From assembly GCF_000190435.1 (NCBI RefSeq), contig NC_015152.1, positions 1,184,458-1,248,457 on the forward strand: a stretch of DNA of 64,000 nucleotides, in the 5' to 3' direction. Below the pieces are notes generated by a model. That model saw only the letters and a program-made list of their open reading frames with translations, was not told where the DNA came from and ran no database searches. The stretch comes from Sphaerochaeta globosa str. Buddy (lineage in GTDB: Bacteria; Spirochaetota; Spirochaetia; Sphaerochaetales; Sphaerochaetaceae). The position numbers and the translations under genes were made by a program. This document shows, one piece after another, positions 7,368 to 23,972 of the stretch. The number at the start of each line of letters is the position of its first letter. The first letter of the stretch is position 1.

Positions 7368-7380
7368 TCGGAACTAATTA

Positions 7381-7424
7381 CTAAAAGCACGGGTATTTGC
7401 GTGAGCCAGTGCCGGTGCTTTTAG
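7381..7424 (+). terminator. Hairpin terminator after topB
   Basis: A perfect 10-bp inverted repeat (7381-7390, CTAAAAGCAC, with 7415-7424) encloses a 24-base loop and starts 13 bases after the topB stop codon. A T-rich run (CTTTTT) follows about seven bases later. The loop is long, so efficiency is uncertain. Confidence 0.65.
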
Positions 7425-7430
7425 TGTACT

Positions 7431-7740
7431 GTCTTTTTGGTGTCTCCAACCAATCAACTAAAGCACATTGAAACCCTATTTGTTATCTTTTTTAAGAACA
7501 AGACTACTGGTTTACAAAGTTACAGTTTGCATTTTCCGTTGACCCCCAAATACAGAGGTTTCCGACCTTTCAAGCCAGTTCTGGTTTATTGCTCCTGTAA
7601 ATCAAGTGCATGCATAGGTACGGTTCCTCTTCATCTATCCTTCAGATATTTCAATCCCTGCGTTTTTCCTCTGGGTAGCCACTGCTCTCATGTAGCAAGG
7701 GATAATCCTATAGTTGCTGTCTGGAAGTGATAATTTTCAT
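7431..7740. other. Intergenic stretch without a recognised gene
   Basis: About 310 bases between the topB terminator and the TAXI promoter region. Open frames here are short, lack ribosome-binding sites and resemble no protein I know. No RNA fold stands out. Confidence 0.6.
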
Positions 7741-7754
7741 ACAATACATATTGT
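7741..7754. promoter_or_regulatory. Palindrome upstream of the TAXI promoter
   Basis: ACAATA-CA-TATTGT is a perfect 6-bp inverted repeat with a 2-base centre, 20 bases upstream of the -35 box of the transporter promoter. The position suits an activator or a second regulator, but no matching copy was found elsewhere in the window. Confidence 0.4.
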
Positions 7755-7773
7755 TGGTTTAGAAAATATTGCG

Positions 7774-7801
7774 TTGACAACTGGCTCAGCCATGCTAAGA
7801 T
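7774..7801 (+). promoter_or_regulatory. Promoter of the TAXI-TRAP cluster
   Basis: A perfect TTGACA (7774-7779) and TAAGAT (7796-7801) are 16 bases apart, 69 bases upstream of the solute-binding-protein start. A candidate operator begins 8 bases further downstream, where it could block RNA polymerase. Confidence 0.75.
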
Positions 7802-7808
7802 ATAGTCG

Positions 7809-7830
7809 CTACTCACACTATAAGAAGTAG
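7809..7830. promoter_or_regulatory. Candidate operator of the FCD regulator (copy 1)
   Basis: This 22-base site begins CTACTCACACT and ends GTAG. The inverted repeat GCTACT/AGTAGC (7808-7813, 7826-7831) frames it. It matches the site at 17988-18009 at 17 of 22 positions, counted by eye. Both copies sit at the transcription start of a promoter of the same cluster, so the simplest reading is repression by the regulator encoded at 18147-18896. Confidence 0.6.
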
Positions 7831-7869
7831 CAAATATGGACACATGCGTCACTACTACAGGAGGAAGAC

Positions 7870-8922
7870 ATGAAAAGGAACCGAACAGGTTTACTAGTGC
7901 TTGCGTTGATACTGGTATCAGGGTTGCTCTTTGCGGCTGCGCAGGCTGAGACCGCTTCTCCGACGGCAGGAGGAATGGAGCCACTCAAGGCGGCCACGTA
8001 TTCGTGGACAGCTGGCGGAATGGGCGGCGGTTGGTACACACAGGCCGGAGCAATGTCGGCAATCGTGAAAAACACATTCCCCGAAATTACTATCAAGGTC
8101 ATTCCTGGTGGTGGAACAGCAAACCCGCTGGCCGTCGATCAGGGCAAAGATGATTTTGGTTGGGGAGTAGGGTATGTCGACAAAGCAGCGTACAATGGCG
8201 TCGCTCCTTTGTATGACAAAGAAGTCAAGAACATCAGAGGCCTTTTGGGCGGATTCTCGGTGGACTTCTATCACTTCTTAGCCGCGAAATCGACGGGAGT
8301 AAACACCATCGACGAATTTGCAGCGAAAATCAAGGCTGGAGAGAAACTCAACGTTGCCGCTCCGATGCCGGGAACCAGTGAACGTGCCCTTACCACGTTC
8401 ATCCTCGAAAACTACTATGGTATTTCGTACGAACAAATTGAGAAAAATGGTGGCAAACTGTTCCAGGCAGTATACGGGGATATGGTCAACTATTATAAGG
8501 ACCGACACGTTGATTACGTTATTGCTTGTCTCGGACTCCCCGGTGCAGCAATTACTGAAATGACGATTTCAAGAGAATCCACCATTCTTGAAGCTAGCGA
8601 TGATTTGATCAAATGGAGTGCCAACACCTATGGTACCGTTGCCCTCGAAAGCGGTTTGAATGTGATTCCTGCCGGCACCTACAAGGGTATTGATGCAAAC
8701 AAGAAGGCTATCGGCCATTCTACTGAAATCATTGCTTCAGCCAAACTGCCCGAAACTGTTGCCTACCACTTTGTCAAAGCTCTCATTGAGAACATTGGCG
8801 ATGTAAAGGCTATCAATCCTTCGTTTGGGAAGTATTTCACTGCCGAGACTGCTCCCGTTACGATGGTTCCGCTTCATCCAGGTGCAGAAAAGTATTACAG
8901 AGAAGTTGGGTTATTGAAGTAA
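7870..8922 (+). CDS. TAXI-family TRAP transporter solute-binding protein
   Basis: This 350-residue periplasmic receptor captures a small organic ligand for the TRAP permease encoded next. Residues 1-26 form a signal peptide with a hydrophobic core (LLVLALILVSGLLFAAA). The mature part has TAXI-family features: a GGxGGGWYTQAGAMSAI-like opening near residue 50, PGGGTANPLAVDQG near 80 and GTSERALTTFILENYYG near 165. Characterised TAXI proteins bind glutamate or related acids, but the ligand cannot be read from sequence. The ATG at 7870 follows AGGAGG. The gene is first in the cluster, behind a consensus promoter and a candidate operator. Its place beside amino-acid enzymes suggests an amino- or imino-acid ligand. 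Confidence 0.9.
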   Translation: MKRNRTGLLVLALILVSGLLFAAAQAETASPTAGGMEPLKAATYSWTAGGMGGGWYTQAGAMSAIVKNTFPEITIKVIPGGGTANPLAVDQGKDDFGWGVGYVDKAAYNGVAPLYDKEVKNIRGLLGGFSVDFYHFLAAKSTGVNTIDEFAAKIKAGEKLNVAAPMPGTSERALTTFILENYYGISYEQIEKNGGKLFQAVYGDMVNYYKDRHVDYVIACLGLPGAAITEMTISRESTILEASDDLIKWSANTYGTVALESGLNVIPAGTYKGIDANKKAIGHSTEIIASAKLPETVAYHFVKALIENIGDVKAINPSFGKYFTAETAPVTMVPLHPGAEKYYREVGLLK

Positions 8923-8939
8923 TCGAACATTGTCTATCA

Positions 8940-8969
8940 AAAACGGACCTTCCTAAAAGGGTCCGTTTT
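8940..8969 (+). terminator. Intercistronic hairpin between receptor and permease
   Basis: A perfect 10-bp stem (8940-8949 with 8960-8969, AAAACGGACC type) with a 10-base loop ends in TTTT. It lies 18 bases after the receptor stop. It probably ends part of the transcripts or protects the 3' end, giving more receptor than permease, as is common in binding-protein-dependent transporters. Confidence 0.7.
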
Positions 8970-9003
8970 CAAAAATGCCTAAAACATAAGTGGGGTGGAT
9001 TCT

Positions 9004-10917
9004 ATGCGTGAATTGAAGGGATGGTTGAGGTGGTTTATCAGTTTTTGCCTTGTTGCGGTGGCCGTATTCCATTTATATACCGCAATATTCGGAGTATTTC
9101 AGCCAAGAATTCAACGTGGTATCCACCTGATGGTTCTCTTGCCGATGGCATTTATTTTATTTCCGGCTACGAAAGATAAATCACCTAAGGATCGGCCGTC
9201 TGTCTTGGATATTATCTTAGCCATTCTGGCAATTCTCCCACCGCTGTATCTTATGTTGGCGGATGCGAGACTGAACTTGCGGTATGAGTTGATCGACCCG
9301 GTCTCCATTCTTGAGACGGTTCTGGGCCTTATCAATATCATATTGTTAATTGAAGCCGTACGCCGGGTTGTCGTACCTGCAATGGCGATCCTGATTGGCG
9401 GCTTTATTGTGTACCTGGTAGCTGCACCGCTTCTTGGCGGCATTTTTTACTCAAAGCCGATGCCTATCAGCCGTATGGTTGAAATTCTCTATCTATTTAC
9501 CAGTGAGGGAATCTATGGGTCCATCATTGGGGTTACGGCAACACTAGTCGCCGTATTTGTTATCTTCGGTGCGTTCATGCAGAATACGAAGACCGGAGAG
9601 TACTTTACAAACCTCGCAGTCGCTCTTGCGGGAAGATCCATTGGTGGTCCTGCGAAGATTGCCGTTATCTCAAGCGGTCTGTTTGGTTCCATCAGTGGCG
9701 TAGCCGCAGCCAACGTATATGCAACGGGTGTGTTCACCATTCCGCTTATGAAACGGTTGGGATATCGCAAGCAATTCGCCGGTGCAGTCGAAGCAGCTGC
9801 CTCAACAGGAGGCTTGATCATGCCTCCGATCATGGGTGCCGGAGCCTTTGTGATGTCGGAAATCACCGGTATTGCATATGTCCATATCATCAAGGCAGCT
9901 GTCATCGGAGCAATTTTCTATTATCTTAGCATTCTTATTAAAGTCCACTTCGAAGCAAAGAAAGAGAATCTTCGGGGCATGGATGAAAGTGAAATCATTT
10001 CAACGAAACAGGTGCTAAAAGACTCGTATCAGTTGATTCCCCTTATTCTGCTCGTCATTTTCTTGGTCATCGGGTATTCACCGTTCATGGCGGCTGTCTA
10101 TGGAATACTCGCTACGTTCTTGGTGACATTCTTCAAGCGTGCCACGTGGATGACTCCCAAGAAACTGTATGAAACGTTCGAGTTGGCGGGAAAGAATCTT
10201 ATCATGCTGGCAGTCACCTGTGCCGGAGCCGGAATGGTAATCAGTATTGTGACCTATACTGGTCTAGCTTTGGGAGTTGCCTCGGTCATCCAGTCTTGGT
10301 CCGGCGGTTTCTTGCTTCCTGCGTTGATGCTGATTATGGTTACATCAATATTGATGGGCATGGGTATGCCGTGTACTCCTGCCTATATCGTCGCCGTAAC
10401 AATCGGCGGCCCTGCTCTGCAGGCACTGGGTATCGATGTACTGACAGCCCACCTATTTGTATTCTATTTCGCTATTCTCGCGGAAGTAACTCCTCCTGTG
10501 AGTATTGCCAGCTACTGCGGAGCTGCAATTGCAGGCTCCGACCCGCTGAAGACCGGATGGGAAGCGTTGCGCCTGGCATTGGTAGGATTCATCATCCCCT
10601 ATATTTTTGTATTTAATCCTGCATTCTTGATGCGGGGAACATTCCTGGAGGTTGTCGCGCTTTGCATTCTCGTATTCTATGCCGTCATTACCATGGCGTC
10701 ATCGATGCGCGGGTACTTCAATAGGATTTTGAAACTATGGAAACGATCAGCATTAGGAGCCTTGACGATAGCTATGATCATCGTTGCATGTACACCAAAA
10801 ATCATGCACTCCTATACGGTTGATATTGCCATAATTATTTCCGCTATCGTTATCATAGTGTTTCTTGTCCTGGCAAAAATGAAAAAGAAGATTCTCCCGC
10901 CTGCCATGCCGGCTTGA
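9004..10917 (+). CDS. TRAP transporter fused permease (small plus large subunit)
   Basis: This 637-residue inner-membrane protein fuses the 4-helix DctQ-like and 12-helix DctM-like TRAP subunits, the normal partner of TAXI receptors. It drives uptake with an ion gradient rather than ATP. The first about 150 residues hold the small-subunit part. The large part shows the conserved GLFGSISGVAAANVYATG near residue 220, EAAASTGGLIMPPIMGAGAF near 260, and MGMGMPCTPAYI plus EVTPPVSIASYCGA toward the end. The ATG at 9004 is preferred because GGGGTGGA lies just upstream; a GTG at 8995 would overlap that site. It follows the receptor after a hairpin. Confidence 0.92.
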   Translation: MRELKGWLRWFISFCLVAVAVFHLYTAIFGVFQPRIQRGIHLMVLLPMAFILFPATKDKSPKDRPSVLDIILAILAILPPLYLMLADARLNLRYELIDPVSILETVLGLINIILLIEAVRRVVVPAMAILIGGFIVYLVAAPLLGGIFYSKPMPISRMVEILYLFTSEGIYGSIIGVTATLVAVFVIFGAFMQNTKTGEYFTNLAVALAGRSIGGPAKIAVISSGLFGSISGVAAANVYATGVFTIPLMKRLGYRKQFAGAVEAAASTGGLIMPPIMGAGAFVMSEITGIAYVHIIKAAVIGAIFYYLSILIKVHFEAKKENLRGMDESEIISTKQVLKDSYQLIPLILLVIFLVIGYSPFMAAVYGILATFLVTFFKRATWMTPKKLYETFELAGKNLIMLAVTCAGAGMVISIVTYTGLALGVASVIQSWSGGFLLPALMLIMVTSILMGMGMPCTPAYIVAVTIGGPALQALGIDVLTAHLFVFYFAILAEVTPPVSIASYCGAAIAGSDPLKTGWEALRLALVGFIIPYIFVFNPAFLMRGTFLEVVALCILVFYAVITMASSMRGYFNRILKLWKRSALGALTIAMIIVACTPKIMHSYTVDIAIIISAIVIIVFLVLAKMKKKILPPAMPA

Positions 10918-11034
10918 TTGAGAGAATTCGTTACCGAGTAATGACGCCATCATACAAGATGGTTTAGCTGGTTACGTGATAGGTAAAAGAACTAAAAGAA
11001 TTAGTACGCGTAACCGGCAGAGAAGGTGGTACAT

Positions 11035-12051
11035 ATGAAATCTTATCGAGTTGCGATTGTTGGTGCACTTGGAGCAGTAGGTCAGCAGATGATGAAGACT
11101 CTCGAACGGTCCTCTTTGGCCGTATCTTCGCTCAAACCGCTGGATATTGAGCAGAATGCCGGGAAGCAAGTATCGTTTAGGAACAAGATGTGGACAGTCG
11201 AGACATCGGGTAAAGGAAAGTTCCTTGATGTCGATATCGCTTTATTTTCTGCTGGAGCGGAAGCAAGTGAAATACTGGCTCCGATTGCCGTTTCAGAAGG
11301 AGCGATCGTAATCGATAACTCAAGTCAGTGGCGAATGACCGATGGTGTTCCCTTGGTGATTCCCGAAGTTAACCCACAAGCATTGCGATCTCATAAAGGC
11401 CTGATCGCCAACCCCAACTGCTCAACCATTCAGATGTTGGTTGCATTGAAGCCTTTGCATGCTGCGTTTACGATCAAGCGTGTCGTAGTTTCGACGTACC
11501 AGGCTGTCTCAGGGAGCGGAGCTGCTGCAATCCGCGAATTGCGTGAACAATCACAGTCGATATTGGATGGCAAGCAACCGGTTGCAAATGTGTATCCGCA
11601 TCCGATTGCTTTTAACGCAATACCCCAAATAGACGTTTTCTTGGATAACGGGTATACCAAAGAAGAGATGAAGATGGTCAACGAAACGCATAAGATGCTG
11701 GATCCAAATATTCTTGTCAGCCCGACAGCTGTTCGAATTCCGGTATTCAGAGGTCACAGCGAGTCCATCAACCTTGAGTTTGAAAAGCCATTTGAGATTG
11801 AACAGATAGTTGAGATATATAAAAAGGCCCCGGGTATACTGCTTGTAGACGATCCTGCCCAGCTTGCGTATCCGATGGCAATTAATTCTGAGGATCGCTA
11901 TGAAGTCTTTGTAGGAAGACTTAGAAGAGATCCCACAGTCCAAAACGGCCTGAATATGTGGGTGGTTTCTGATAACCTTCTCAAAGGAGCAGCGCTTAAC
12001 ACAGTACAGATAGCCGAAAAACTGGTCGAAATGGATTTGATCAGCCGTTGA
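11035..12051 (+). CDS. asd: Aspartate-semialdehyde dehydrogenase
   Basis: This 338-residue enzyme reversibly reduces L-aspartyl phosphate to aspartate 4-semialdehyde with NADPH, the branch-point step before DapA. The N-terminal nucleotide-binding loop reads GALGAVGQQMM. The catalytic nucleophile is Cys129 in NPNCSTIQ, and the active-site His241 lies in FRGHSES. Length is normal for the family. The ATG at 11035 follows GAAGGTGG; a GTG at 11026 is less likely. It lies 117 bases after the TRAP permease and 34 bases before an FAD oxidoreductase, all on one strand. Being in this cluster, not the lysine operon at 19.3 kb, is unusual; whether it is the only asd in the genome cannot be told here. Confidence 0.93.
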   Translation: MKSYRVAIVGALGAVGQQMMKTLERSSLAVSSLKPLDIEQNAGKQVSFRNKMWTVETSGKGKFLDVDIALFSAGAEASEILAPIAVSEGAIVIDNSSQWRMTDGVPLVIPEVNPQALRSHKGLIANPNCSTIQMLVALKPLHAAFTIKRVVVSTYQAVSGSGAAAIRELREQSQSILDGKQPVANVYPHPIAFNAIPQIDVFLDNGYTKEEMKMVNETHKMLDPNILVSPTAVRIPVFRGHSESINLEFEKPFEIEQIVEIYKKAPGILLVDDPAQLAYPMAINSEDRYEVFVGRLRRDPTVQNGLNMWVVSDNLLKGAALNTVQIAEKLVEMDLISR

Positions 12052-12085
12052 TCCTGCACTCGACATACTAGAGGAGACGAAGTAC

Positions 12086-13261
12086 ATGACATATGCTGCC
12101 GACGTATTGGTTATCGGGGGAGGCATTATTGGCCTTTCTTGTGGTTTTTACCTCTCAAAACGAGGTAAGCGGGTGTTTGTACTTGATTCAGGCGGATTTG
12201 CCGACGGCGCATCCGGTGCCTGTGACGACATGATACTGTTCCAGTCCAAAAAGCCCGGGATTAATCTGGCATTGACCTTTGAAAGCTTGGAACTCTATAA
12301 ATCACTGCTTACCGAGCTGGATGACGATCTTGGCTTTGCAAACATGGGTGGAATGGTGCTTATAGAAAACCAACAAGAGTTGGAGATCATGGAGGAATTC
12401 GTTGCCCAGCAACGCTCATATGGTCTGGATGTCGAGGTGATCGATAAGCGCGCGATGCTCAAGAAACAACCCTTTCTCAGTGACCATATCATTGCATCCA
12501 CGTACAGCAAAATGGATTCTCAGGTAGACCCATTTTCTGTCATGCGGGGCTTTGAGAGAAAAGGTGGCTCATACGGCATGAAAGTCTTCAGGCGTAATGG
12601 GGTAGTCGGTATCGATCGCATCGGTACCGGTGATTACCAGGTTGTCACCGAAGATGGAAGTATCTATCAAGCTCCGATTGTCGTAAATGCTGCAGGAACA
12701 TGGGCAGGCCAGATTGGTGAGATGGTCGGTGCCACTATACCGATCAAGCCCAAACGTGGTCAGATTATTGTGACCGAACGTATTCCCCAGATAGGTGACA
12801 CCAATCTTTGGAGTGCGAAATATCTGGTAACCAAATTACGGAGTGATGTCGTTGTTGATCTCAATGAAGATGAGCGGAGCATGGGATTGTCGATGGCAAT
12901 AACCCGTTCCTCCGGTGATACCTATCTGATAGGGAGTACCCGCGAGTTTGTAGGTTTCGATAAGAATACTACAATCGCGGGAATTCGAGCAATCATCAAA
13001 CAGACGCTTACCTATTTGCCGAAATTGCGGGATGTCAACTTCATCCGCGCGATGGCTGGATTGCGGCCTTCGACTCCCGACGGTAGGATGCTCTTGGGTG
13101 AGCATGCCGGCATCGAAGGATTCTTTACTGCAGCGGGACACGAAGGCGATGGAATCGCACTTGCCCCGATTACCGGCAAGCTTTTGGCTTCGATGGTATG
13201 CCGGGACCCGGTCGATCATCGCTTGGACGAATTGTCGCCCAATCGATTCGCTAACCCTTAA
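12086..13261 (+). CDS. FAD-dependent amine/imino-acid oxidoreductase, catalytic subunit (DadA/glycine-oxidase fold)
   Basis: This 391-residue flavoprotein of the DAO superfamily oxidises the C-N bond of an amino or imino acid. The FAD-binding motif VLVIGGGIIGLSCGFYLSKR opens the chain and an acidic residue follows in FVLDSGG. Near the C terminus, GLRPSTPDGRMLLG and AAGHEGDGIALAP are the typical flavin-contact segments of this superfamily. Related subunits act in D-hydroxyproline dehydrogenase, opine oxidases and HcnC. The three genes downstream encode matching Fe-S and flavin partners, so this is probably a dehydrogenase that passes electrons on rather than an oxygen-using oxidase. The substrate is not evident. 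The ATG follows GAGGAG. Confidence 0.85.
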   Translation: MTYAADVLVIGGGIIGLSCGFYLSKRGKRVFVLDSGGFADGASGACDDMILFQSKKPGINLALTFESLELYKSLLTELDDDLGFANMGGMVLIENQQELEIMEEFVAQQRSYGLDVEVIDKRAMLKKQPFLSDHIIASTYSKMDSQVDPFSVMRGFERKGGSYGMKVFRRNGVVGIDRIGTGDYQVVTEDGSIYQAPIVVNAAGTWAGQIGEMVGATIPIKPKRGQIIVTERIPQIGDTNLWSAKYLVTKLRSDVVVDLNEDERSMGLSMAITRSSGDTYLIGSTREFVGFDKNTTIAGIRAIIKQTLTYLPKLRDVNFIRAMAGLRPSTPDGRMLLGEHAGIEGFFTAAGHEGDGIALAPITGKLLASMVCRDPVDHRLDELSPNRFANP

Positions 13262-13273
13262 GGAGGACCGATT

Positions 13274-13579
13274 ATGACTGACGATAAGGATAAAGATAAG
13301 GACATGTTCATCTGCCGTTGTGAGGAAGTTACCCTTCGTGAGATAGAACAGGCAATAGACGACGGCTTTGTTACTGTCAAAGACGTCAAACGTGTGACGC
13401 GAGCAGGTATGGGCCTCTGCCAAGGGAGAACTTGCTCCAAGACCATCGCGAGAATCATTGCGCAACGTACCGGCAAGCCGCTTGAAGAGATATTACCGAA
13501 ATCCTTCCGATATCCTGTACGACCCGAAAAGATGATGGCTGTCGAAAATGAGGAGTTTGACGATGCAAAGAATTCTTGA
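13274..13579 (+). CDS. [2Fe-2S] BFD-like subunit
   Basis: This 101-residue protein has the four cysteines of the bacterioferritin-associated-ferredoxin-like fold: CRC near residue 13-15 and C-x4-C in GMGLCQGRTC about 34 residues later. Such domains occur as separate subunits or fusions in HcnB, opine oxidase and hydroxyproline dehydrogenase systems, where they carry one [2Fe-2S] cluster. A lysine/aspartate-rich N terminus (MTDDKDKDKDM) precedes it. AAGGAGG lies ahead of the ATG. Its end overlaps the next start by 17 bases, so expression is coupled. It probably relays electrons between the two flavin subunits. Confidence 0.88.
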   Translation: MTDDKDKDKDMFICRCEEVTLREIEQAIDDGFVTVKDVKRVTRAGMGLCQGRTCSKTIARIIAQRTGKPLEEILPKSFRYPVRPEKMMAVENEEFDDAKNS

Positions 13580-13883
13580 TCATCCGATACTTGGTCCGCT
13601 TCCCGATGAACAGAAGGTAATCATGTATGTTGACGGCGAGCCTGTTGAAGCGCGTAAAGGGGAAATGATTGCCGCAGCCCTCATAGCTGCCGGAAAACCT
13701 TATTTTCGCAAGACGGTAAAAACCCATGAACCGCGTAGTATTTTCTGCGGCATCGGTCGTTGTACCGATTGCGTGATGACAGTCAACGGAATTCCCAATG
13801 TCCGCACCTGTGTGACGGCCGTCGAAGACGGGATGGTGATAGAGACGCAAATGGGACTTGGCGATTGGGGAGGGAAACGATAA
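13563..13883 (+). CDS. [2Fe-2S] subunit, HcnA/Fer2_4 type
   Basis: This 106-residue protein is a plant-type [2Fe-2S] domain of the Fer2_4 class, found as HcnA or as the N-terminal part of sarcosine oxidase alpha. The cluster ligands are visible in FCGIGRCTDCVM (C-x4-C-x2-C) with the fourth cysteine 11 residues later in VRTCVT. The region before it (VIMYVDGEPVEARKGEMIAAALIAAG) is the usual beta-grasp start. The ATG at 13563 is chosen because AGGAG is seven bases upstream. It overlaps the BFD gene and is followed after three bases by the second flavoprotein. Confidence 0.9.
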   Translation: MQRILDHPILGPLPDEQKVIMYVDGEPVEARKGEMIAAALIAAGKPYFRKTVKTHEPRSIFCGIGRCTDCVMTVNGIPNVRTCVTAVEDGMVIETQMGLGDWGGKR

Positions 13884-13886
13884 CAA

Positions 13887-14978
13887 ATGATAGAAAGAGA
13901 TATAGTTGTTATCGGCTCTGGGCCGGCGGGATTGTGTGCGGCCATTGAAGCTGCCCAAGCCGGGGCAAATGTGCTGTTGGTTGACGAAAACGCCAAGCCC
14001 GGCGGACAATTGTTCAAACAGATACATAAATTCTTCGGTTCTCGAGAACATAATGCCGGTGTCCGTGGAATCGATATCGGAACATTGTTGTTGAAACAGG
14101 CAGAAGAACTGAATATTGAAGTCTGGCTCAACACCGAAGCCTGTGGAATTTTCGACCAGGATAAAGTCTGGGTCGTGCGTGATAAAAGCAAATCAGTAAC
14201 GATTCATGCGAAACGCATCATTCTGGCTACCGGAGCCAACGAGAATGCTGTAAATTTTCCCGGCTGGACACTCCCTGGCGTTATGGGAGCCGGTGCCGCC
14301 CAGACCATGATCAACATCCACCGGGTTCTGCCCGGTCAGAAAATCCTCATGATAGGCTCGGGGAATGTCGGCGTCATTGTGTCGTATCAGTTGCTTCAAG
14401 CCGGTGCACAAGTCAAGGCAGTTGTTGAAGCAGCCCCGCAACTTGGTGGGTATGGTGTCCATACCGCCAAGGTCAAACGTGCAGGAGTCCCTTTCTATAC
14501 TGGTCATACCGTATTGGAAGCTAGGGGAACCGATCATGTATCGTCGGCTGTCATTGTAAAACTTGATGCTGCGTGGAAACCGATTCTAGGCACCGAATTC
14601 GAATTGGATGTAGACACCATCTGCATTGCTGCCGGTCTTACCCCTGCAGTGGAACTAGCCTTTGGAGCAGGTTGCCGCTCGGTGAACAGTCCTGTGTTGG
14701 GTGGGTTGGTGCCGTGGCATGATGAAACGATGCGTACCAGCATACCTTCAATCTATATCGCTGGGGATGTTTCGGGTGTTGAAGAAGCCAGTACTGCGAT
14801 GGAGGAAGGGCGCATGGCCGGACTTTCGGCCGCCCAATCGCTTGGATTTCTTGAGGCTGCACGGTATACGTCTCGATTTGAAGCAATCAACCATAACTTG
14901 TTGGCGTTGCGTTCCGGCATGTTTGGACAAAAAAGGCGTGATGCGAAAGCAGCCATCATGGCTGCCAGGAAAGGATGA
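13887..14978 (+). CDS. NAD(P)/FAD-dependent oxidoreductase subunit, HcnB type
   Basis: This 363-residue protein has two dinucleotide-binding folds: VVIGSGPAGLCAAIEAAQAG at the N terminus for FAD and ILMIGSGNVGVIVSYQLLQ near residue 155 for a second nucleotide, with the flavin-binding IYIAGDVSG near residue 290. It is the pyridine-nucleotide-disulfide-oxidoreductase-like subunit of HcnB/OoxA-type enzymes, but here the BFD domain is a separate gene. It may reduce NAD(P)+ or pass electrons to the ferredoxin encoded next. The start codon lacks a strong ribosome-binding site, consistent with coupling to the gene three bases upstream. Its stop overlaps the next start (ATGA). Confidence 0.88.
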   Translation: MIERDIVVIGSGPAGLCAAIEAAQAGANVLLVDENAKPGGQLFKQIHKFFGSREHNAGVRGIDIGTLLLKQAEELNIEVWLNTEACGIFDQDKVWVVRDKSKSVTIHAKRIILATGANENAVNFPGWTLPGVMGAGAAQTMINIHRVLPGQKILMIGSGNVGVIVSYQLLQAGAQVKAVVEAAPQLGGYGVHTAKVKRAGVPFYTGHTVLEARGTDHVSSAVIVKLDAAWKPILGTEFELDVDTICIAAGLTPAVELAFGAGCRSVNSPVLGGLVPWHDETMRTSIPSIYIAGDVSGVEEASTAMEEGRMAGLSAAQSLGFLEAARYTSRFEAINHNLLALRSGMFGQKRRDAKAAIMAARKG

Positions 14979-15511
14979 ACGACATGGATTATCAAAACGA
15001 TACAGAAGGAAGACTCAAGACTACCGGTGCAGCAAGCCTGGCCGAATTGCATGCGACGAAGGAATATATCCTTCCTGATGAGCGCATGAAGCATCCTGTT
15101 GCGGTAATCGAATGCATCGAGGCAATCCCCTGTAATCCATGCGAGACAGCTTGTCCCGTTCATGCCATCACGGTAGGTTCCGAGATTACCAACCTGCCGG
15201 TCATTGACATCGAAAAATGTACCGGGTGCGGTTTGTGTGTTGCGGCATGTCCGGGCTTGGCAATTTATCTCAAGCAAAAGAACTATACGACAGATTTGTC
15301 CTTCATTGCTTTCCCGTTCGAATATGTGCCGCTTCCTGAAGCGGGACAAACAGTCAACATGGTCAATCGCTACGGCCAGGTAGTATGCGAGGGAACCGTG
15401 ATCAAGGTGGTGACAATCAAGCGGTTCAACCGAACCGCTATCATCCATGCTTCCTACCCAGTCAAGCAATACGAACATGTTGTGAATATGCAGAGATTGG
15501 CTCGCAACTAG
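14975..15511 (+). CDS. 4Fe-4S ferredoxin-domain subunit of the dehydrogenase
   Basis: This 178-residue protein carries two [4Fe-4S] motifs in the middle: CIEAIPCNPCETACP (about residues 45-60) and CTGCGLCVAACPG (about 80-92). A C-terminal domain of about 70 residues follows, without known motifs. It starts in an ATGA overlap with the HcnB-type subunit. A ferredoxin subunit is not part of classical HcnABC; it suggests the complex delivers electrons to, or takes them from, a low-potential or membrane carrier, which suits an anaerobe. The stop codon overlaps by three bases the end of the convergent dapB-ACT gene. Confidence 0.87.
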   Translation: MNDMDYQNDTEGRLKTTGAASLAELHATKEYILPDERMKHPVAVIECIEAIPCNPCETACPVHAITVGSEITNLPVIDIEKCTGCGLCVAACPGLAIYLKQKNYTTDLSFIAFPFEYVPLPEAGQTVNMVNRYGQVVCEGTVIKVVTIKRFNRTAIIHASYPVKQYEHVVNMQRLARN

Positions 15512-16722
15512 ATAGCAAATTCTTCCTTGATGATTCTGATTGCCTTATCGACGTCGGTGGAATGGATTGCGTACTCAATCTTATTCTCCGACGTTGTTAC
15601 AGCGAAAATCGAAATATCGGCTTTTGCCATGCACGAGAATACCTTGTAAGCTACACCGGACTGGAATTCCATACCGGGTCCTTCTACAGTCAACTTCGTA
15701 ATATTCTCAGAAATCGTGGCCTTGGTTTGAGCCTGCATCTCGGTAAGCTTTGCAATCACGTTTCTCGTCTTTTCCAGATCTTTGCGATTAATGGTGAACG
15801 CAATCGCGATATGTCCATTGGTTGCACCGGTATGGCTGATCATGTCGATGAATACATCGTTCGAAGCCAATGCACCGTAGAGGTCTGTCACCAGCGTCAT
15901 GTCCCTGGGAATATTTTCAATCGATACCAGTATCTGTTCCGGTTGCGCCAATAATGTCGTTATTGCACTTTTTGCGGTAATCATATCCTGCATCGTATAC
16001 ATACCGGGTTTTTTCTCGAAAATGTAGGAAGTTGCCAAAACAGCTCCGGTGGCGAACACTTGCCGAGAAAAGGCTTGATGTGCGATGGTTATCACCTCAT
16101 CTTTGCCTGCAAACGATACTTCGTGCTCTCCAACAATCGTCCCCCCGCGCAATGAGTGGATTCCCAGCTCATCGTTCTTACGCAGCGAGTCGTTGCCGTG
16201 TCGGCCGTATACGTATCTCAGTTTATTTGTCCGGCCCTCGTTAACCGAGTCAGCAAGCATTAATGCCGTACCGCTGGGTGCATCCTTTTTCAGATTATGA
16301 TGCTTTTCGATTATTTCTACATCGAATTGTTCGCCCAACACTTTCGCTGCATTTTTTATCAATTGCTGGACGAGGTTGACTCCAAGCGACATACTTCCAG
16401 AACGAAATACGGGAATCTTTTCAGATGCTGCTGCCAATAAGTTCAATTCGAGAGTCTCGAGTCCGGTTGTTGCCACAACAACAGCGAGCCTACGCTCGAT
16501 TGCAACGTCAAGATAGTCGTGCAGAGATTTGGGTGAGGAAAAGTCAAGCAGGACATCGGCTTCAACGGGACAGGTAAAAAGGCTCGGATACACCTGGTAC
16601 TCCCGTTCGCTTGGACATACATCAATTCCTGCAACGATGCAAAGATTGTCAATTCGCTCTACCATCGTTGTGATAACTTGTCCCATCCTTCCACTGCAAC
16701 CGTAAAGAATTACTCTAACCAT
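15508..16722 (-). CDS. Dihydrodipicolinate reductase fused to aspartokinase-type ACT domains
   Basis: The first about 245 of 404 residues are a complete DapB (4-hydroxy-tetrahydrodipicolinate reductase). The nucleotide loop is YGCSGRMGQV and the substrate/catalytic motif is KHHNLKKDAPSGTALML, retaining both the His and the Lys equivalent to E. coli His159 and Lys163. The remaining about 140 residues are not DapB. They match the tandem ACT domains of aspartokinases, with signatures VSIENIPRDMTLVTDLYGAL and KLTVEGPGMEFQSGVAYKVF, yet no kinase domain is present. ACT domains bind amino acids, so allosteric control by lysine or a related compound is expected. The start MVRVILYG at 16722 has AGGA upstream; an ATG at 16731 sits too close to it. 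No dapB symbol is given because the role may differ. Confidence 0.9.
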   Translation of the reverse strand: MVRVILYGCSGRMGQVITTMVERIDNLCIVAGIDVCPSEREYQVYPSLFTCPVEADVLLDFSSPKSLHDYLDVAIERRLAVVVATTGLETLELNLLAAASEKIPVFRSGSMSLGVNLVQQLIKNAAKVLGEQFDVEIIEKHHNLKKDAPSGTALMLADSVNEGRTNKLRYVYGRHGNDSLRKNDELGIHSLRGGTIVGEHEVSFAGKDEVITIAHQAFSRQVFATGAVLATSYIFEKKPGMYTMQDMITAKSAITTLLAQPEQILVSIENIPRDMTLVTDLYGALASNDVFIDMISHTGATNGHIAIAFTINRKDLEKTRNVIAKLTEMQAQTKATISENITKLTVEGPGMEFQSGVAYKVFSCMAKADISIFAVTTSENKIEYAIHSTDVDKAIRIIKEEFAI

Positions 16723-17094
16723 ACAAAACATCCTGTTATAATATTTGTCTATATGTTATTCTTAAAACACGAATGAATCAATAATAACATCAAAATATTT
16801 ATACATTTCTATCTGATTTTCTTACGATCATGCTAGAGAGCAAAAACTAGCTGCTACACCCGCTTCTTTTATGGAAGAATCAAAAAATCCTTCATTCCGC
16901 ACAATGGCCTATACAAGTGAGTAAGGTACTCATGGAATGAGGTTGCATATTGGTAGCAAGAAGATATCGCAGTAGGGGACCAAATGAGTAGGAAACGCTA
17001 TTGGCTGCCTGATTAGCTATGACCCCCACCATAGCAATCATGCCAGGTTGGGGGTCATAGGGTTGTATGCGTTTATAGGAGCTCTTGCAATGAC
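16723..17094 (-). other. Leader/gap between dapA and dapB-ACT with a strong hairpin
   Basis: This 372-base gap has no gene. Its main feature is a perfect 12-bp inverted repeat (17017-17028, CTATGACCCCCA, with 17049-17060) with a 20-base loop, 35 bases after the dapA stop. No T-run follows, so a plain terminator is doubtful. Close to the dapB-ACT start is an A+T-rich stretch with TATAAC-like boxes (16733-16790) that could be a promoter. dapB-ACT may therefore be read both from the dapA promoter and from its own. Confidence 0.55.
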
Positions 17095-17958
17095 TCAATT
17101 CTTAAATGTAGCGAGTAGCGTTTCCTTATGCGATGCCTGTAGCGGCACCAGCGGAAGTCTGAATACCTCCTCGAGCATACCCTTGGACGCCATATAGGTC
17201 TTAACAGGAACAGGGTTTGTCTCGATGAACTGATTCACAAAAAATGGATAGATCCAGTTGTAGACTTCCAATGCCGTCGAAAAATCACCTATGGCGGCAG
17301 CGTGGGTCATCTTCACCATTTCGGATGGGAACATGTTGCTGGCTACCGAAATGATGCCTTGTGCACCGCATACCATCATTGGTAGGGTAAGGGCATCGTC
17401 TCCTGATAACACAGCGAAATCAGAAGGCTTCCTATGCAGTAAATCCTGTATCTGTCCCATATTTCCACAAGCTTCCTTATCTGCGACGATAAGCGGATGC
17501 TGTGCTAGTCTGAGCACAAGGTTTACTGACATGTTGACCGCACTGCGGCCTGGAATATTGTATAAAACTACCGGTAATTCGCCCTTTTCCGCGATTTCGA
17601 CAAAATGTCGATATAAACCTTCTTCGGATGGTTTGTTGTAGTAAGGAGCAACTTGCAGTGTGTAATCGGCACCAGCATCCTTTGCTATTTTTGTTGCTTC
17701 TATCGCCGATTTCGTGCAGTTGGAACCGCTGCCGGCAATGATAGGAACTTTTCCTTTCGCAAGTTGGGCAACAGTCTTGATAATCAGCTCTTTCTCTTTG
17801 CTGTCAAGAGTCGGACTTTCTCCGGTTGTACCAATCGGTACTAAGCCATCGATACCTGATTCCAGTTGTTTTTGGACGATTGCCTTAAGCGCACCGATAT
17901 CAATAGTTCCATTTTGGGAAAACGGTGTGACTAGCGCAGTAAAAACTCCATGCAACAT
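17095..17958 (-). CDS. dapA: 4-hydroxy-tetrahydrodipicolinate synthase, cluster copy
   Basis: This 287-residue enzyme condenses pyruvate with aspartate 4-semialdehyde; the reaction is an aldol reaction and can be reversed. Residue numbers coincide with E. coli DapA. Catalytic Lys161, Tyr133, Thr44-Thr45, Tyr107 and the substrate-binding Arg138 are all present, so it should be a true DapA rather than a sialate or hydroxyproline-pathway relative. The lysine-inhibition residues are not kept: His53 is Ser, His56 is Lys and Glu84 is Ser. The operon copy at 20147 keeps them. It is divergent from the regulator gene, behind a consensus promoter with an operator-like site at the transcription start. 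AAGGAG precedes the ATG. Confidence 0.92.
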   Translation of the reverse strand: MLHGVFTALVTPFSQNGTIDIGALKAIVQKQLESGIDGLVPIGTTGESPTLDSKEKELIIKTVAQLAKGKVPIIAGSGSNCTKSAIEATKIAKDAGADYTLQVAPYYNKPSEEGLYRHFVEIAEKGELPVVLYNIPGRSAVNMSVNLVLRLAQHPLIVADKEACGNMGQIQDLLHRKPSDFAVLSGDDALTLPMMVCGAQGIISVASNMFPSEMVKMTHAAAIGDFSTALEVYNWIYPFFVNQFIETNPVPVKTYMASKGMLEEVFRLPLVPLQASHKETLLATFKN

Positions 17959-17987
17959 GGCGATTCTCCTTGATTTTATTTAAAACA

Positions 17988-18009
17988 CTACTCATACTGT
18001 GAGTGGTAG
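17988..18009. promoter_or_regulatory. Candidate operator of the FCD regulator (copy 2)
   Basis: This site begins CTACTCATACT and ends GTAG and matches the site at 7809-7830 at 17 of 22 positions. It is embedded in larger symmetry: ACACTACT (17985-17992) is a perfect inverted copy of 18008-18015. It begins next to the -10 box of the dapA promoter and covers its start site. It lies in the gap shared with the regulator gene, so autoregulation is also possible. Confidence 0.65.
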
Positions 18010-18010
18010 T

Positions 18011-18039
18011 AGTGTAAACCGCCGAATTCCTGCAGTCAA
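18011..18039 (-). promoter_or_regulatory. Promoter of the cluster dapA
   Basis: On the minus strand TTGACT (18039-18034) and TACACT (18016-18011) are exactly 17 bases apart. The candidate operator lies directly downstream. Confidence 0.8.
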
Positions 18040-18146
18040 GTAAAACCGTCGAAAGAACTTAGTGAAGAGCGATTGAATAGATAGGGAAAATAATAACGCC
18101 TTGCGACAATGTTTTAGATTCGTTAGACTGGCACGGAGGTAAAATC

Positions 18147-18896
18147 GTGGATATTTCTAAGGATAAATGGAAGAAGCCTATTCTGGAACTCGTCGGGACT
18201 TCTGAGGAACCGGTTGGATCTTGGTATATAGTCAACAACTTTAAAAAAAACGGTATTGAAGTGAGTAGTGCAACGATTGGACGAGAGCTCAACGAGTTGG
18301 AAACACTCGGATATCTCGAAAAAATCGGTTTTAAAGGGCGCTTGATTACTCCGCTCGGACGGAAAGTCATCGAGGATGCACGCACAACGCTCGAACTCGA
18401 TTACTACAAGACAAGCTTGGACTCCCTGCTAAGCAGCGATATGCTGGACAATTTTGTCATGGTGCTTGAAGCGAGGTCCGCCATTGAGCGCCAAACAGCA
18501 CGCCTTGCAGCCGAACGTATTACTGATGGGGAATTGGCAGAACTCAAACGTTGTTATGAAAACCAGCAGATGCATTCGTCTGACAGGCAAAGTATTGCAA
18601 ACGATGATGTGGCTTTCCATAGTTGTATCGCCAGAGCATCAAAAAACAAAGCGCTGGTATCATTGTATATGATGCTTTCTACTATGGGACAGCAGTCGGA
18701 ATTGTTTGAACAACTCAGGCATCGGGTAGGTGATAACTATCGCACGTATCACCTCAGCATTCTTGAGGCAATCGAGAATCATGACCCCGATCAAGCTGAG
18801 ACCTGTATGATGGAGCACATTCAGAAACTGACGCACGACGTCAATCAGTACTGGAACGAGTACATGCGTAAGCGTAAAGATAGTAAAGGGAAATAA
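18147..18896 (+). CDS. FCD-domain transcriptional regulator with atypical winged helix
   Basis: The 249-residue protein has a C-terminal all-helical FCD ligand-binding domain (about residues 95-240) as in FadR-type regulators. FHSCIARASKN, YHLSILEAIENHD and a final MMEHIQ supply the metal/ligand histidines. The N-terminal about 75 residues form a winged helix (SSATIGRELNELETLGYLEK, then a basic wing) that looks more like the HrcA/NrpR kind than the GntR wing normally joined to FCD. FCD domains sense small acids or amino acids. It starts at GTG (18147) behind GGAGG. Divergence from dapA and the two similar operator-like sites suggest it controls the whole 7.8-18 kb cluster. Confidence 0.85.
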   Translation: MDISKDKWKKPILELVGTSEEPVGSWYIVNNFKKNGIEVSSATIGRELNELETLGYLEKIGFKGRLITPLGRKVIEDARTTLELDYYKTSLDSLLSSDMLDNFVMVLEARSAIERQTARLAAERITDGELAELKRCYENQQMHSSDRQSIANDDVAFHSCIARASKNKALVSLYMMLSTMGQQSELFEQLRHRVGDNYRTYHLSILEAIENHDPDQAETCMMEHIQKLTHDVNQYWNEYMRKRKDSKGK

Positions 18897-19299
18897 TAAT
18901 TAAGATGATCTGACGTTGCTTTCTCTACCTTTTTTGAGATTATGTAGCCGGTGCATCAGCCACTCGACGCCTGGAATCCGTTAAAGCCGGCATTCCGGGC
19001 TTCATTTTTTTGGACTTCAAGGATTTCTGACAGAGCCATTTTTGAGCTTTCAGATGCTGCTCGCTTTTCGACTTGCTTTAGCTGAGAAGCAGCAGGCTCG
19101 ATGGGACCACTGTTGTGCGTGTAGCTTCGTCGACACAACCAGGTTTTTGGTGTTTTGTTTCCTCCTTTTTCGATGCTCTGTGCAGGTCTTGTTTTCCAGC
19201 AAACTATAGCTTTCAGACAGGCAGGTACAAAATATAGAGGGGATACTTGAAAGAAAATGGCATTGGAGTAGTTGCATAAAAAACATTTTGTTGTGATTG
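18897..19299. other. Intergenic stretch with a doubtful minus-strand frame
   Basis: About 400 bases between the regulator and the lysine-operon promoter. A minus-strand frame is open from 19333 to 18956 (125 codons). Its last about 65 residues look helical and protein-like (SQLKQVEKRAASESSKMAL), but it has no good ribosome-binding site and no relative I recognise. It may be a gene remnant. Nothing else was seen, and no lysine riboswitch pattern was recognised ahead of the dap operon. Confidence 0.4.
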
Positions 19300-19328
19300 T
19301 GGACAAAATGTTATTGAAATGATACACT
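19300..19328 (+). promoter_or_regulatory. Promoter of the lysine biosynthesis operon
   Basis: TGGACA (19300-19305) and TACACT (19323-19328) are 17 bases apart, 30 bases upstream of the dapB start codon. The -35 box and following AAATG are the same as at the first rRNA promoter (53668), suggesting a strong vegetative promoter. Confidence 0.78.
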
Positions 19329-19357
19329 CCCAATCAATACAAACAGAGGAGACCAGA

Positions 19358-20119
19358 ATGCATATTGCAATAGTAGGATTTGGTAAGATGGGAAAGCAAT
19401 TGCATGAGGCTGCAATTACAAGCGGACATGAGGTTGTCTCAATCATCGATCCCCATTCTACGGATTCGAGAGTGACACACCACACGCTGACTAGGCAGGC
19501 GTTGTCCGGTGTAGACGTAGCTATCGAATTTTCTGTAGCCGATGGGATCGAGGAACGGATGAAGCTGTACTGCGACACCTCGACACCTGCTGTCATTGCT
19601 ACTACCGGATGGTACGATAAGCTTAATGCCCTCAAGGCGCTCTATTCTCGTCCCGAATGTGCAATCATCTGGTCTGGAAACTTCTCGATCGGAGTACAGC
19701 TTTATTTTGCGATTGTACGGAAAGCTGCAAGCTTGATGAATAGGTTTCCGGAATACGATTCGTTGGTCCAGGAATGGTTTCATGCGGCAAAAGCTGATAG
19801 TCCCTCAGGTACTGCGGTGATGCTGGGGAACATTCTGACTCAACAGCTTGATGGAAAAACCACGCTTGAGACGGCTCGACTCGACCGAAAGCGGGAACAA
19901 CGTGAAATACATGTCTCTTCGGTTCGCGGGGGGTACACTCCAGGTGTGCATACGGTTCTATTCGATAGCCCGGTGGATACTATCGAGCTAAGCCATACAG
20001 CCCGCAGCAGAGAAGGCTTTGTCACAGGAGCATTGAAAGCCGCAACATGGATTACTGCACAAAAGCACGGATTCTTTTCCATCGACGATATGCTTGACGA
20101 CTTGCTGGGATCAAATTAA
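19358..20119 (+). CDS. dapB: 4-hydroxy-tetrahydrodipicolinate reductase (lysine operon)
   Basis: This 253-residue DapB reduces the DapA product to tetrahydrodipicolinate in lysine and diaminopimelate synthesis. The nucleotide-binding loop is IVGFGKMGKQLHEA and the C-terminal half keeps SSVRGGYTPGVHTVLF. The catalytic motif is EWFHAAKADSPSGTA: Lys163 (E. coli numbering) and one His are kept, but the residue equivalent to His159 is Phe. The DapB-ACT paralogue at 15508 has both histidines. It is the first gene of dapB-dapA-dapL-lysA, behind a consensus promoter. The ATG at 19358 is chosen because GAGGAG precedes it. Confidence 0.92.
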   Translation: MHIAIVGFGKMGKQLHEAAITSGHEVVSIIDPHSTDSRVTHHTLTRQALSGVDVAIEFSVADGIEERMKLYCDTSTPAVIATTGWYDKLNALKALYSRPECAIIWSGNFSIGVQLYFAIVRKAASLMNRFPEYDSLVQEWFHAAKADSPSGTAVMLGNILTQQLDGKTTLETARLDRKREQREIHVSSVRGGYTPGVHTVLFDSPVDTIELSHTARSREGFVTGALKAATWITAQKHGFFSIDDMLDDLLGSN

Positions 20120-20146
20120 TACTACTTTGAAAAACGAGGAATGAGT

Positions 20147-21058: not shown

Positions 21059-21064
21059 GCATTC

Positions 21065-23556: not shown

Positions 23557-23972
23557 TGCACCGGTTTCCGATTCGCGTGTATTACAGCGATACCGACTGT
23601 GGTGGTATTGTCTACCACGGCCGGTATCTTGATTTTGCAGAACATGCACGGACCGAGCTGCTGCGCGAACTGGGCAGGCAGCATGGGCTTTCGGGGTCGC
23701 AAACCAGCTTGATGGAATCGGAAGGTTTGGTTTTTGTCGTAAAGTCGATTGCGGTTGACTACCAAAGCCCTGCACACCTTGATGATCTTTTGGAAGTGCA
23801 GACCGAACTTGAGAGTGCAAAACGATTCTCCATCGTCTTCAGGCAGACGGTACTCCGAGATGGACAGACGTTGTGTGTTCTCCAAGTTAAAGTTGCCTCC
23901 ATCAATACAGAGACGCACCGTCCGATGCCGATGCCCCCTTGGTTTATTCCAGCCTTCGAAGCTGCTAGATAG
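23556..23972 (+). CDS. Acyl-CoA thioesterase, YbgC/4-hydroxybenzoyl-CoA type
   Basis: This 138-residue hot-dog-fold thioesterase carries the family motif YYSDTDCGGIVYHGRYLDFA, whose Asp is the catalytic residue. YbgC proteins hydrolyse short-chain acyl-CoA or act with the phospholipid system. The start overlaps the lysA stop by one base (TGATG), so it is the last gene of the dap operon, although no metabolic link to lysine is apparent. It meets the lipoprotein gene tail to tail. Confidence 0.88.
   Translation: MHRFPIRVYYSDTDCGGIVYHGRYLDFAEHARTELLRELGRQHGLSGSQTSLMESEGLVFVVKSIAVDYQSPAHLDDLLEVQTELESAKRFSIVFRQTVLRDGQTLCVLQVKVASINTETHRPMPMPPWFIPAFEAAR

Follow-up and report, generated by a model that had tools for sequence, protein, structure and literature searches.

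A conserved spirochaete gene cluster joins TAXI-TRAP uptake, a five-subunit dehydrogenase and a DHDPS-type DapA in what is probably a catabolic module

Results

Gene content of the cluster

We analyzed a 64-kb stretch of the Sphaerochaeta globosa str. Buddy genome (NC_015152.1, positions 1,184,458 to 1,248,457; hereafter the window, in whose numbering all coordinates are given). The genome is a single contig of 3.3 Mb, and between positions 7870 and 18896 of the window lies a cluster that combines a TAXI-family TRAP importer, a predicted five-subunit dehydrogenase and additional copies of asd, dapA and dapB. An earlier note, made from the sequence alone, had named these genes, and profile matches bear out every assignment and position.

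Eight genes lie on the forward strand. The first three encode a TAXI-family TRAP solute receptor (7870-8922; TIGR02122, 146.5 bits against a cut-off of 84.35), a fused TRAP permease (8995-10917; TIGR02123, 591.6 bits, cut-off 320.65) and an extra aspartate-semialdehyde dehydrogenase of the bacterial type (Asd; 11026-12051; TIGR01296, 434.2, cut-off 324.2). The remaining five would form the dehydrogenase complex: a DAO-family FAD catalytic subunit of the beta type (12086-13261; PF01266), a BFD-like [2Fe-2S] subunit (13274-13579; PF04324/PF17806), a Fer2_4 [2Fe-2S] subunit (13548-13883; PF13510), an HcnB/SoxA-like PyrRedox subunit of the alpha type (13887-14978; PF07992) and a 4Fe-4S ferredoxin-like subunit (Fd; 14975-15511; PF00037 and others). 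Tandem DAO beta, PyrRedox alpha and [2Fe-2S] genes are the set by which, following PMC4575208, a heteromeric DAO-type dehydrogenase is recognized at the gene level. Because the gaps between the eight genes (7870-15511) are at most 108 nt and two of the genes overlap their upstream neighbor, they look like one transcription unit.

Convergent to these genes, on the reverse strand, are dapA1, encoding a dihydrodipicolinate synthase (DHDPS; 17095-17958; TIGR00674, 335 bits, cut-off 206.15) with the motifs GTTGES, YYNKP and YNIPGR and the Lys, and a gene for DapB with an aspartokinase-type ACT tail (DapB-ACT; 15508-16731; TIGR00036, 204.2, cut-off 122; PF22468/PF13840), an associated component and not a core one. 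A gene for an FCD-domain regulator (18147-18896, forward strand; PF07729) diverges from dapA1. The 363-nt gap by which dapA1 lies upstream of dapB-ACT (16732-17094) holds an inverted repeat, CTATGACCCCC ... GGGGGTCATAG, found by eye and without an Rfam match; given this gap and its repeat, dapB-ACT may be under its own control. Its ACT tail could sense lysine.

The adjoining lysine operon has its own DapB and DapA genes, along with genes for an aminotransferase that we read as DapL and for a LysA-family decarboxylase. A reading of the cluster itself as a lysine biosynthesis operon was rejected, since the adjoining operon holds the fuller set and an Rfam search of positions 7300-24000 at E up to 1 gave no match to a lysine riboswitch or any other family. 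The second Asd that this genome encodes belongs to the asd_EA type (TIGR00978, 344.4 against a cut-off of 301.2), and an asd_EA-like gene is present in 21/24 genomes of the genus, with only the copy of this genome profile-scanned.

The dehydrogenase clade and its conserved neighborhoods

Our samples comprised 392 spirochaetes, 398 Bacillota and smaller sets. Of 40 relatives, its own genome counted, 7 have an ortholog of the DAO subunit with at least 54% identity, and 7 of the 392 spirochaetes match it at E 1e-80 or better; two genomes are common to both sets. The Bacillota yielded 35 profile matches at 1e-100 or better in 25 of the 398 genomes, and the neighborhoods of all 35 were read. In a FastTree phylogeny of 43 DAO proteins, the window protein falls within an 18-member clade with support of 1.000 (the window, L033, L113-L118, L169-L173, L188, L222, L223, L225 and L227; hereafter the core clade); the remaining Bacillota matches belong to other DAO groups. 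This clade persists in a tree enlarged to 56 proteins by 12 further Bacillota matches, a control in which none of the 12 joined it, and by the fragment L190 (19 members with L190, support 1.0). We left L190 out of the counts: it is a DAO fragment of genome G430 on a 3.2-kb contig with BFD, Fer2_4, PyrRedox and Fd genes, and the FCD, DapA1 and DapB-ACT genes of the same genome lie on another contig (L035). The motif CD(D/E)MI(L/F)xQSKKPG is found in 18/18 core-clade members showing the region.

The whole gene set recurs in L113, L114, L033, L169 and L170 (L170 without Asd), where L033 and L169 are almost identical and not independent; L115 and L116 are versions cut by contig ends. Elsewhere the order differs. 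L117 carries, on one strand, a DapA1 fragment, DapB-ACT, DAO, BFD, Fer2_4, PyrRedox, Fd, TAXI and TRAP, with no Asd, and L118 has an FCD gene divergent from DapA1, then TAXI, TRAP, Asd, DAO, BFD, Fer2_4, PyrRedox and Fd, with DapB-ACT located elsewhere in its genome. The run in L171 is TAXI, TRAP, a racemase-like gene, DAO, FCD, BFD, DapA, Fer2_4, PyrRedox, Fd, Asd and aspartokinase (AK); L172 and L173 share this order and the AK, with the racemase and Asd genes absent. In the Bacillota loci L223 and L225, DAO, a sodium symporter, FCD, BFD, DapA, Fer2_4, PyrRedox and Fd are joined, at one end, by an aldehyde:ferredoxin oxidoreductase (AOR). Geosporobacter subterraneus (G437) has AK-Asd divergent from DAO (L222) and a further contig with the sodium:solute symporter (SSS), FCD, BFD, DapA, Fer2_4, PyrRedox and Fd (L263); its second DAO gene stands alone (L188). 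FCD genes lie in or beside L033, L113, L114, L116, L118, L169-L173, L223, L225 and L263.

Across the core clade, DapA accompanies the dehydrogenase at 15/18 loci, 13 of them in the same stretch and two (L116, L222) via a further contig (L164, L263). It is missing in L188 and L227, and L115 is cut by the contig end. Asd is present at 10/18 loci, AK at 4/18 and AOR at 2/18; any of the three is found at 14/18, and none in L117, L170, L188 and L227. All 13 full-length spirochaete loci have the TAXI receptor ortholog and TAXI-TRAP uptake genes (13/13), and L223, L225 and L263 have a sodium:solute symporter. Within the genus, DapB-ACT and the bacterial-type Asd (asd_B) occur in 5/5 dehydrogenase genomes versus 2/19 and 3/19 of the others (p 0.0005 and 0.0013, with ancestry ignored).

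Because these neighborhoods are conserved and re-ordered in other families and phyla, and because an operator-like site is common to both arms of the window cluster (below), the comparison supports a grouping that goes beyond chance proximity, as the earlier note had held; it had suggested searching other genomes for the same gene set, and conserved co-occurrence is what the search found. The cluster is a real, conserved module. A spare lysine set lying by accident beside an unrelated imino-acid dehydrogenase and importer is accordingly a very improbable explanation. It could draw on the DapA1/DapB-ACT pairs that stand without the dehydrogenase beside them in L036, L040, L041 and L060, and on DapB-ACT being the lysine-locus DapB of many clostridia, but it sits poorly with re-ordered co-occurrence over families and phyla, with the common operator-like site and with the DapA gene placed between subunit genes at six loci. 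Since the pair occurs elsewhere in spirochaetes away from the cluster, it probably began as lysine genes.

A shared operator-like site

An imperfect palindrome, spotted by eye, precedes the TAXI gene (7809-7830) and recurs between dapA1 and the FCD gene (17988-18009). Allowing up to three mismatches, the 64 kb hold no other match to its consensus, CTACTCAnACTnTnAGnnGTAG (0.10 expected; two reached in 2/100 shuffles). Both copies lie no more than 7 nt after a promoter-like site. The first is 7 nt past a sigma-70-like promoter of the TAXI operon (7774-7801, forward strand; TTGACA, 16 nt, TAAGAT, with TG preceding the second hexamer), and the second starts 1 nt after a site reading toward dapA1 (18039-18011, reverse strand). 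Such promoter-like sites are common by chance: the search before the TAXI operon found 1 against 0.6 expected in shuffles, which is weak alone, and that around dapA1 found 7 against 5.5 expected.

L113, L114, L033, L169 and L170 carry the exact consensus in both positions, and L115 carries it before TAXI. In L118, from another family, the two corresponding positions hold operator-like sites that show 2 and 3 mismatches to it. Looser matches (3-4 mismatches) precede TAXI in L116 and dapA1 in L164. With 4 mismatches, L033, L169 and L170 have an additional site after TRAP, ahead of the following gene, and L172 and L173 have one where TAXI starts. The lysine operon of the window has no match, at up to 4 mismatches, in the 422 nt that precede it. 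Because the site stands before both dapA1 and the TAXI operon and not before the lysine operon, it appears to connect dapA1 with the importer and the dehydrogenase, and not with lysine synthesis. Its placement suggests that the FCD protein represses both arms through this common site, probably until an inducer binds.

DapA and the chemical meeting point

The cluster DapA proteins retain the DHDPS motifs, which are present in all 14 core-clade cases other than L117, where DapA is a C-terminal fragment at a contig start. We noted single changes (GTTAES in L113, GTTGEA in L225, YYSKP in L164, YDVPGR in L118), and the nine proteins scored reach 284-349 bits against the TIGR00674 cut-off of 206.15. 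The DapA-family enzymes of two plasmid hydroxyproline-type clusters (L184, L185) have GSLGEY and NNPLD or NNPID instead, and the one scored reaches 207.1. Given these motifs and scores, unlike those of the hydroxyproline-type relatives, the cluster DapA should handle 4-hydroxy-tetrahydrodipicolinate (HTPA).

The layouts of the plasmid clusters, from Priestia and Citricoccus, prompted us to weigh a role in hydroxyproline or proline breakdown, with a deaminase of the DapA family: they share the complex family and the arrangement of DAO, DapA-family and aldehyde-oxidizing genes with the window. Those clusters carry proline-racemase genes alongside the DapA-family gene, and the scanned window genes include none. 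Their DapA relatives lack GTTGES and YNxPGR, the scored one barely passes the profile that the nine cluster proteins pass comfortably, and AK and Asd would have no role in such a route. We set this reading aside on the DapA motifs and on Asd and AK, and regard it as very unlikely.

Two DapA lineages occupy this position, the spirochaete DapA1 and a clade (support 0.959) of L171-L173 with the Bacillota loci L223, L225 and L263. In these last six loci the gene sits between the BFD and Fer2_4 genes. Two lineages, and a gene lodged among the subunit genes, argue that the DapA step is needed.

The two halves of the cluster had been proposed in the earlier note to meet at tetrahydrodipicolinate. This point is not supported: in the stretches read, DapB is missing and a DHDPS-type DapA kept in the clusters of G032, G402, G354, G375, G437, G800 and G712, so that HTPA is the better candidate, and the product of the dehydrogenase is more likely HTPA or dihydrodipicolinate. 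DapB-ACT was likewise dropped as a core component, the neighborhoods across loci showing DapB to be optional. The same seven clusters make catabolism of diaminopimelate or piperidine-2,6-dicarboxylate unlikely, a scheme in which the complex would form tetrahydrodipicolinate, DapB-ACT would oxidize it to HTPA, and DapA1 and Asd would follow. Moreover, the G800 genome gives no TIGR00036 match, and DapB is expected to run uphill toward HTPA. What this scheme has in its favor is that diaminopimelate is abundant, that the DAO superfamily contains D-amino acid dehydrogenases, that DapB-ACT belongs to the cluster in Sphaerochaetaceae, that a single-strand run in G024 joins a DapA1 fragment, DapB-ACT, the dehydrogenase genes, TAXI and TRAP, and that a true DapB follows the complex in L227.

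Fusions of DapB to an aspartokinase-type ACT tail, as in the window and L037-L065, occur in clostridial lysine loci, spirochaetes and one Desulfobulbaceae contig, and this is the lysine-locus DapB in many clostridia. The closest named matches of the window protein are in spirochaete metagenome-assembled genomes, one from a Sphaerochaetaceae bacterium. The fusion is possibly a feedback-controlled DapB.

Direction of flow

The companions of DapA vary, and all handle an aldehyde or an aldehyde phosphate: Asd, AK with or without Asd, or AOR. Outside the core clade, L189 has an aldehyde dehydrogenase. No ACT domain was matched in the two cluster AKs scanned (L171, L222). In a tree, the cluster Asds group with those of three ectoine-type clusters, apart from 26 clostridial lysine-locus Asds that had been picked for closeness from 80 DapB-ACT-type loci (support 1.0). 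Geosporobacter has no DapB on its cluster stretches (L222, L263) and keeps a separate asd-dapA-dapB operon (L267). Taken together, the aldehyde-handling companions, the importers within the clusters, the Asd clade and the separate Geosporobacter operon argue for a catabolic direction, and fit a pathway that would pass through HTPA as its central intermediate and degrade its substrate to aspartate and pyruvate. Catabolism, which the earlier note had put forward as one of two options, is the simplest reading. The end products that it named, pyruvate and aspartyl phosphate, fit as well, and AK is an additional gene of the cluster in G402, G354, G375 and Geosporobacter (G437).

The ectoine-type clusters of the tree (L166, L167 and L168, in spirochaetes) place a phosphorylating Asd beside an aminotransferase-like gene. 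We take them to serve ectoine catabolism from their gene content by eye; only the Asd of L167 was scanned. Their pathways may end in aspartyl phosphate, saving an ATP.

The opposite direction, in which aspartate would be carried to HTPA and on to dipicolinate or another chelator with the complex acting as a dipicolinate synthase, seems highly improbable. In its favor, Geosporobacter forms spores, and AK, Asd and DapA are the biosynthetic steps to HTPA, which a passage of PMC9024752 gives as the branch point for dipicolinate. Against this stand the presence of the cluster in spirochaetes, which are not known to form spores, the uptake systems (TAXI-TRAP or sodium symporter), the replacement of Asd and AK by AOR in L223 and L225, and the kinship of the cluster Asd with ectoine-cluster Asds. 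A Pfam scan of the cluster proteins in the window (E up to 0.001) matched neither SpoVFA nor SpoVFB, the dipicolinate synthase families.

We therefore favor, as likely though well short of certain, a catabolic regulon that would run DapA backward: the dehydrogenase would supply HTPA or dihydrodipicolinate, and DapA would cleave it to pyruvate and aspartate semialdehyde. TAXI-TRAP would take up a cyclic 2,6-dicarboxylate, and the flavin/Fe-S complex would convert it, by transfer of one electron pair, to dihydrodipicolinate/HTPA for retro-aldol cleavage by DapA1. Asd would then oxidize the semialdehyde with phosphate to aspartyl phosphate, from which AK, encoded within the cluster in some relatives, would yield aspartate and ATP. 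DapB-ACT, where present, would most likely divert HTPA to lysine and diaminopimelate synthesis. The cluster is probably a co-regulated catabolic module, one that, within the reach of our searches, has no assigned function.

Candidate substrates

One two-electron step to HTPA/dihydrodipicolinate would be either the reduction of dipicolinate or the oxidation of a 4-hydroxylated piperidine-dicarboxylate or diaminopimelate. Piperidine-2,6-dicarboxylate itself, the kind of compound suggested in the earlier note, would give tetrahydrodipicolinate and fits less well; a dipicolinate-type compound, which that note had considered as a product, fits better as the substrate. On chemical grounds, DAO enzymes act at a C-H adjoining nitrogen and a carboxylate, which is the bond that distinguishes dihydrodipicolinate from dipicolinate.

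Dipicolinate is our leading substrate, held tentatively, because the stoichiometry balances and the route gives the reported fermentation products. The complex would be a dipicolinate reductase using electrons released by Asd (as NADPH) or AOR (as ferredoxin), and the steps from aspartate to HTPA would run in reverse, making the pathway redox-neutral. We compute that dipicolinate + 3 H2O = pyruvate + aspartate, and that dipicolinate + 4 H2O = acetate + propionate + NH3 + 2 CO2. A passage of PMC9826295, after Seyfried & Schink 1990, describes a marine anaerobic coculture that ferments dipicolinate to acetate, propionate, ammonia and CO2, and calls the exact enzymatic pathway unelucidated as of 2022. 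Among the open-licence PMC papers listed by our searches on dipicolinate breakdown, we recognized none that assigns genes to anaerobic degradation.

Entry at HTPA by oxidation, through a 4-hydroxylated piperidine-2,6-dicarboxylate or 4-hydroxy-diaminopimelate as six-ring homolog of hydroxyproline, is in our view improbable. We know of no abundant natural 4-hydroxylated compound of this type. The idea gains from the racemase-like gene in L171, from the parallel with hydroxyproline catabolism (described in part of PMC4113996, and visible in the Priestia and Citricoccus clusters), and from the fact that oxidation is the family's described chemistry in the portion of PMC4575208 consulted.

Two leads concerning the catalytic subunit were rejected. 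Lys56 is present in 18/18 core-clade proteins showing the region, also in 5/37 outside it, and is absent from L240, L269 and L270, where DapA stands beside DAO; this distribution removed it as proof of a second substrate carboxylate. A HMMER alignment places Lys56 next to the glycine-oxidase loop 51-54, but it is gapped there and offers only a hint; introduced arginines in that loop are described as aiding glyphosate binding. Recoded TAG codons within two DAO genes were the other lead; the TAG is a terminal stop.

Several points weigh against the favored catabolic reading. We know of no precedent for reduction of a pyridine ring by a DAO-family dehydrogenase, and the characterized family members covered in that part of PMC4575208 oxidize. 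DHDPS motifs indicate HTPA and not a reaction direction. Asd is absent from the clusters in L117 and L170, AK stands without Asd in L172 and L173, and the racemase-like gene in L171 hints at a chiral substrate. At 10/18 core-clade loci the cluster includes DapB (L116 via a further contig). L227 has DapB and lacks DapA: its stretch (7207-13645) has, after a core-clade dehydrogenase, a true DapB (TIGR00036, 200 bits) along with a racemase-like gene. G402 and G354 have no DapA above the TIGR00674 cut-off other than that of the cluster, which may also serve lysine synthesis there; G402 has two further AKs and two further semialdehyde-dehydrogenase-family genes. G004 and G015 have DapA1, DapB-ACT (their only DapB match) and Asd with no dehydrogenase match, on contigs of 3.2 and 4.3 kb in genomes 86% and 80% complete; their Asds nest among the cluster Asds, and the dehydrogenase looks to have been lost. 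As for the operator-like site, its count in the window is circular, the consensus having been derived from the two window sites, and apart from L118, L116 and L164 the confirming clusters are close relatives, so that ancestry partly explains its conservation.

Related complexes outside the core clade

Many complexes outside the core clade stand beside a racemase-like gene; one member of this gene family, from L171, was scanned (PRK07475, PF01177). In the Bacillota loci L224, L226, L229, L230, L232, L233, L241 and L274, a five-subunit dehydrogenase lies near such an Asp/Glu-racemase-like gene with no DapA, and the racemase-like genes near Bacillota complexes have an xGDIGN motif by eye. DapA stands beside DAO in L231, L240, L269 and L270; L189 has a DapA fragment there, and a weak DapA relative is found near L279, which lies on the hydroxyproline side of the DAO tree. 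L240 (8891-12781; G736), L269 and L270 combine DAO, DapA and a sodium symporter without Fe-S or PyrRedox genes of their own, and complete complexes are found elsewhere in the same genomes (L232 in G736; L230 and L229 in G779 and G614). These DAO proteins may exchange subunits in the manner that an excerpt of PMC4575208 gives for opine dehydrogenases.

Two further neighborhoods deserve mention. L042 (4934-11517), on a Desulfobulbaceae contig that has no dehydrogenase, is a run of genes that by eye are racemase-like, SDR-like and GntR-like, followed by DapB-ACT and TAXI-TRAP; a DAO complex occurs elsewhere in that genome (L189), accompanied by a fragment of DapA and an aldehyde dehydrogenase. 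In L191, from a clostridial genome, a five-subunit DAO complex with BFD and 4Fe-4S genes stands beside a RocA-like gene (by eye) and is probably a proline dehydrogenase.

Discussion

The cluster is a variant of the hydroxyproline-type scheme of dehydrogenase, DapA-fold enzyme and aldehyde sink. Catabolism of trans-4-hydroxy-L-proline proceeds through an epimerase, a D-hydroxyproline dehydrogenase, the Pyr4H2C deaminase of the DHDPS superfamily and an alpha-ketoglutarate semialdehyde dehydrogenase, and the window genes likewise place a DAO-type dehydrogenase for a cyclic imino acid, a DapA-fold enzyme and an aldehyde-oxidizing enzyme in series. The differences are a DapA with DHDPS motifs, an aldehyde sink of Asd/AK or AOR, a TAXI-TRAP importer and an extra 4Fe-4S subunit. 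Neither a proline-racemase-family epimerase nor an aldehyde dehydrogenase was found among the scanned window genes (other loci were judged by BLAST with the window genes and by eye).

The dehydrogenase shares its DAO beta, PyrRedox alpha and [2Fe-2S] subunits with HcnABC, the opine dehydrogenases (Nox/Oox/Odh), D-hydroxyproline dehydrogenase and archaeal L-proline dehydrogenase; unlike these, it forms a clade of its own, with the CD(D/E)MI(L/F)xQSKKPG motif and a linked DapA. Up to HTPA, the enzyme families are those of the diaminopimelate lysine pathway (asd-dapA-dapB operon), whereas here they are a second copy with an optional DapB, an importer and dehydrogenase attached, their own operator-like site and an Asd of another clade.

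Aerobic dipicolinate catabolism in Alcaligenes faecalis JQ135 reportedly depends on a dip gene cluster with the monooxygenase dipD (Mu et al. 2022). That system possibly shares its substrate with the cluster described here; it starts with a monooxygenase and needs oxygen. No retro-DapA step is known to us in the aerobic dip route. Fermentative dipicolinate degradation offers a further parallel: the predicted carbon flow would end in the acetate, propionate, ammonia and CO2 listed in the relevant passage of PMC9826295.

The same source puts the share of dipicolinate in endospore dry weight at 5-15%, and the cluster is a concrete gene set that offers a plausible answer to how dipicolinate is fermented. 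If this is true, the aspartate/lysine pathway would be reversed for energy, and a family described as dehydrogenases would possibly take a reductive role. To our knowledge, no catabolic retro-DapA route has an earlier case, whatever the substrate. If such a route is true, genes named dapA, asd or lysC would not always be biosynthetic, which would be a warning for annotators.

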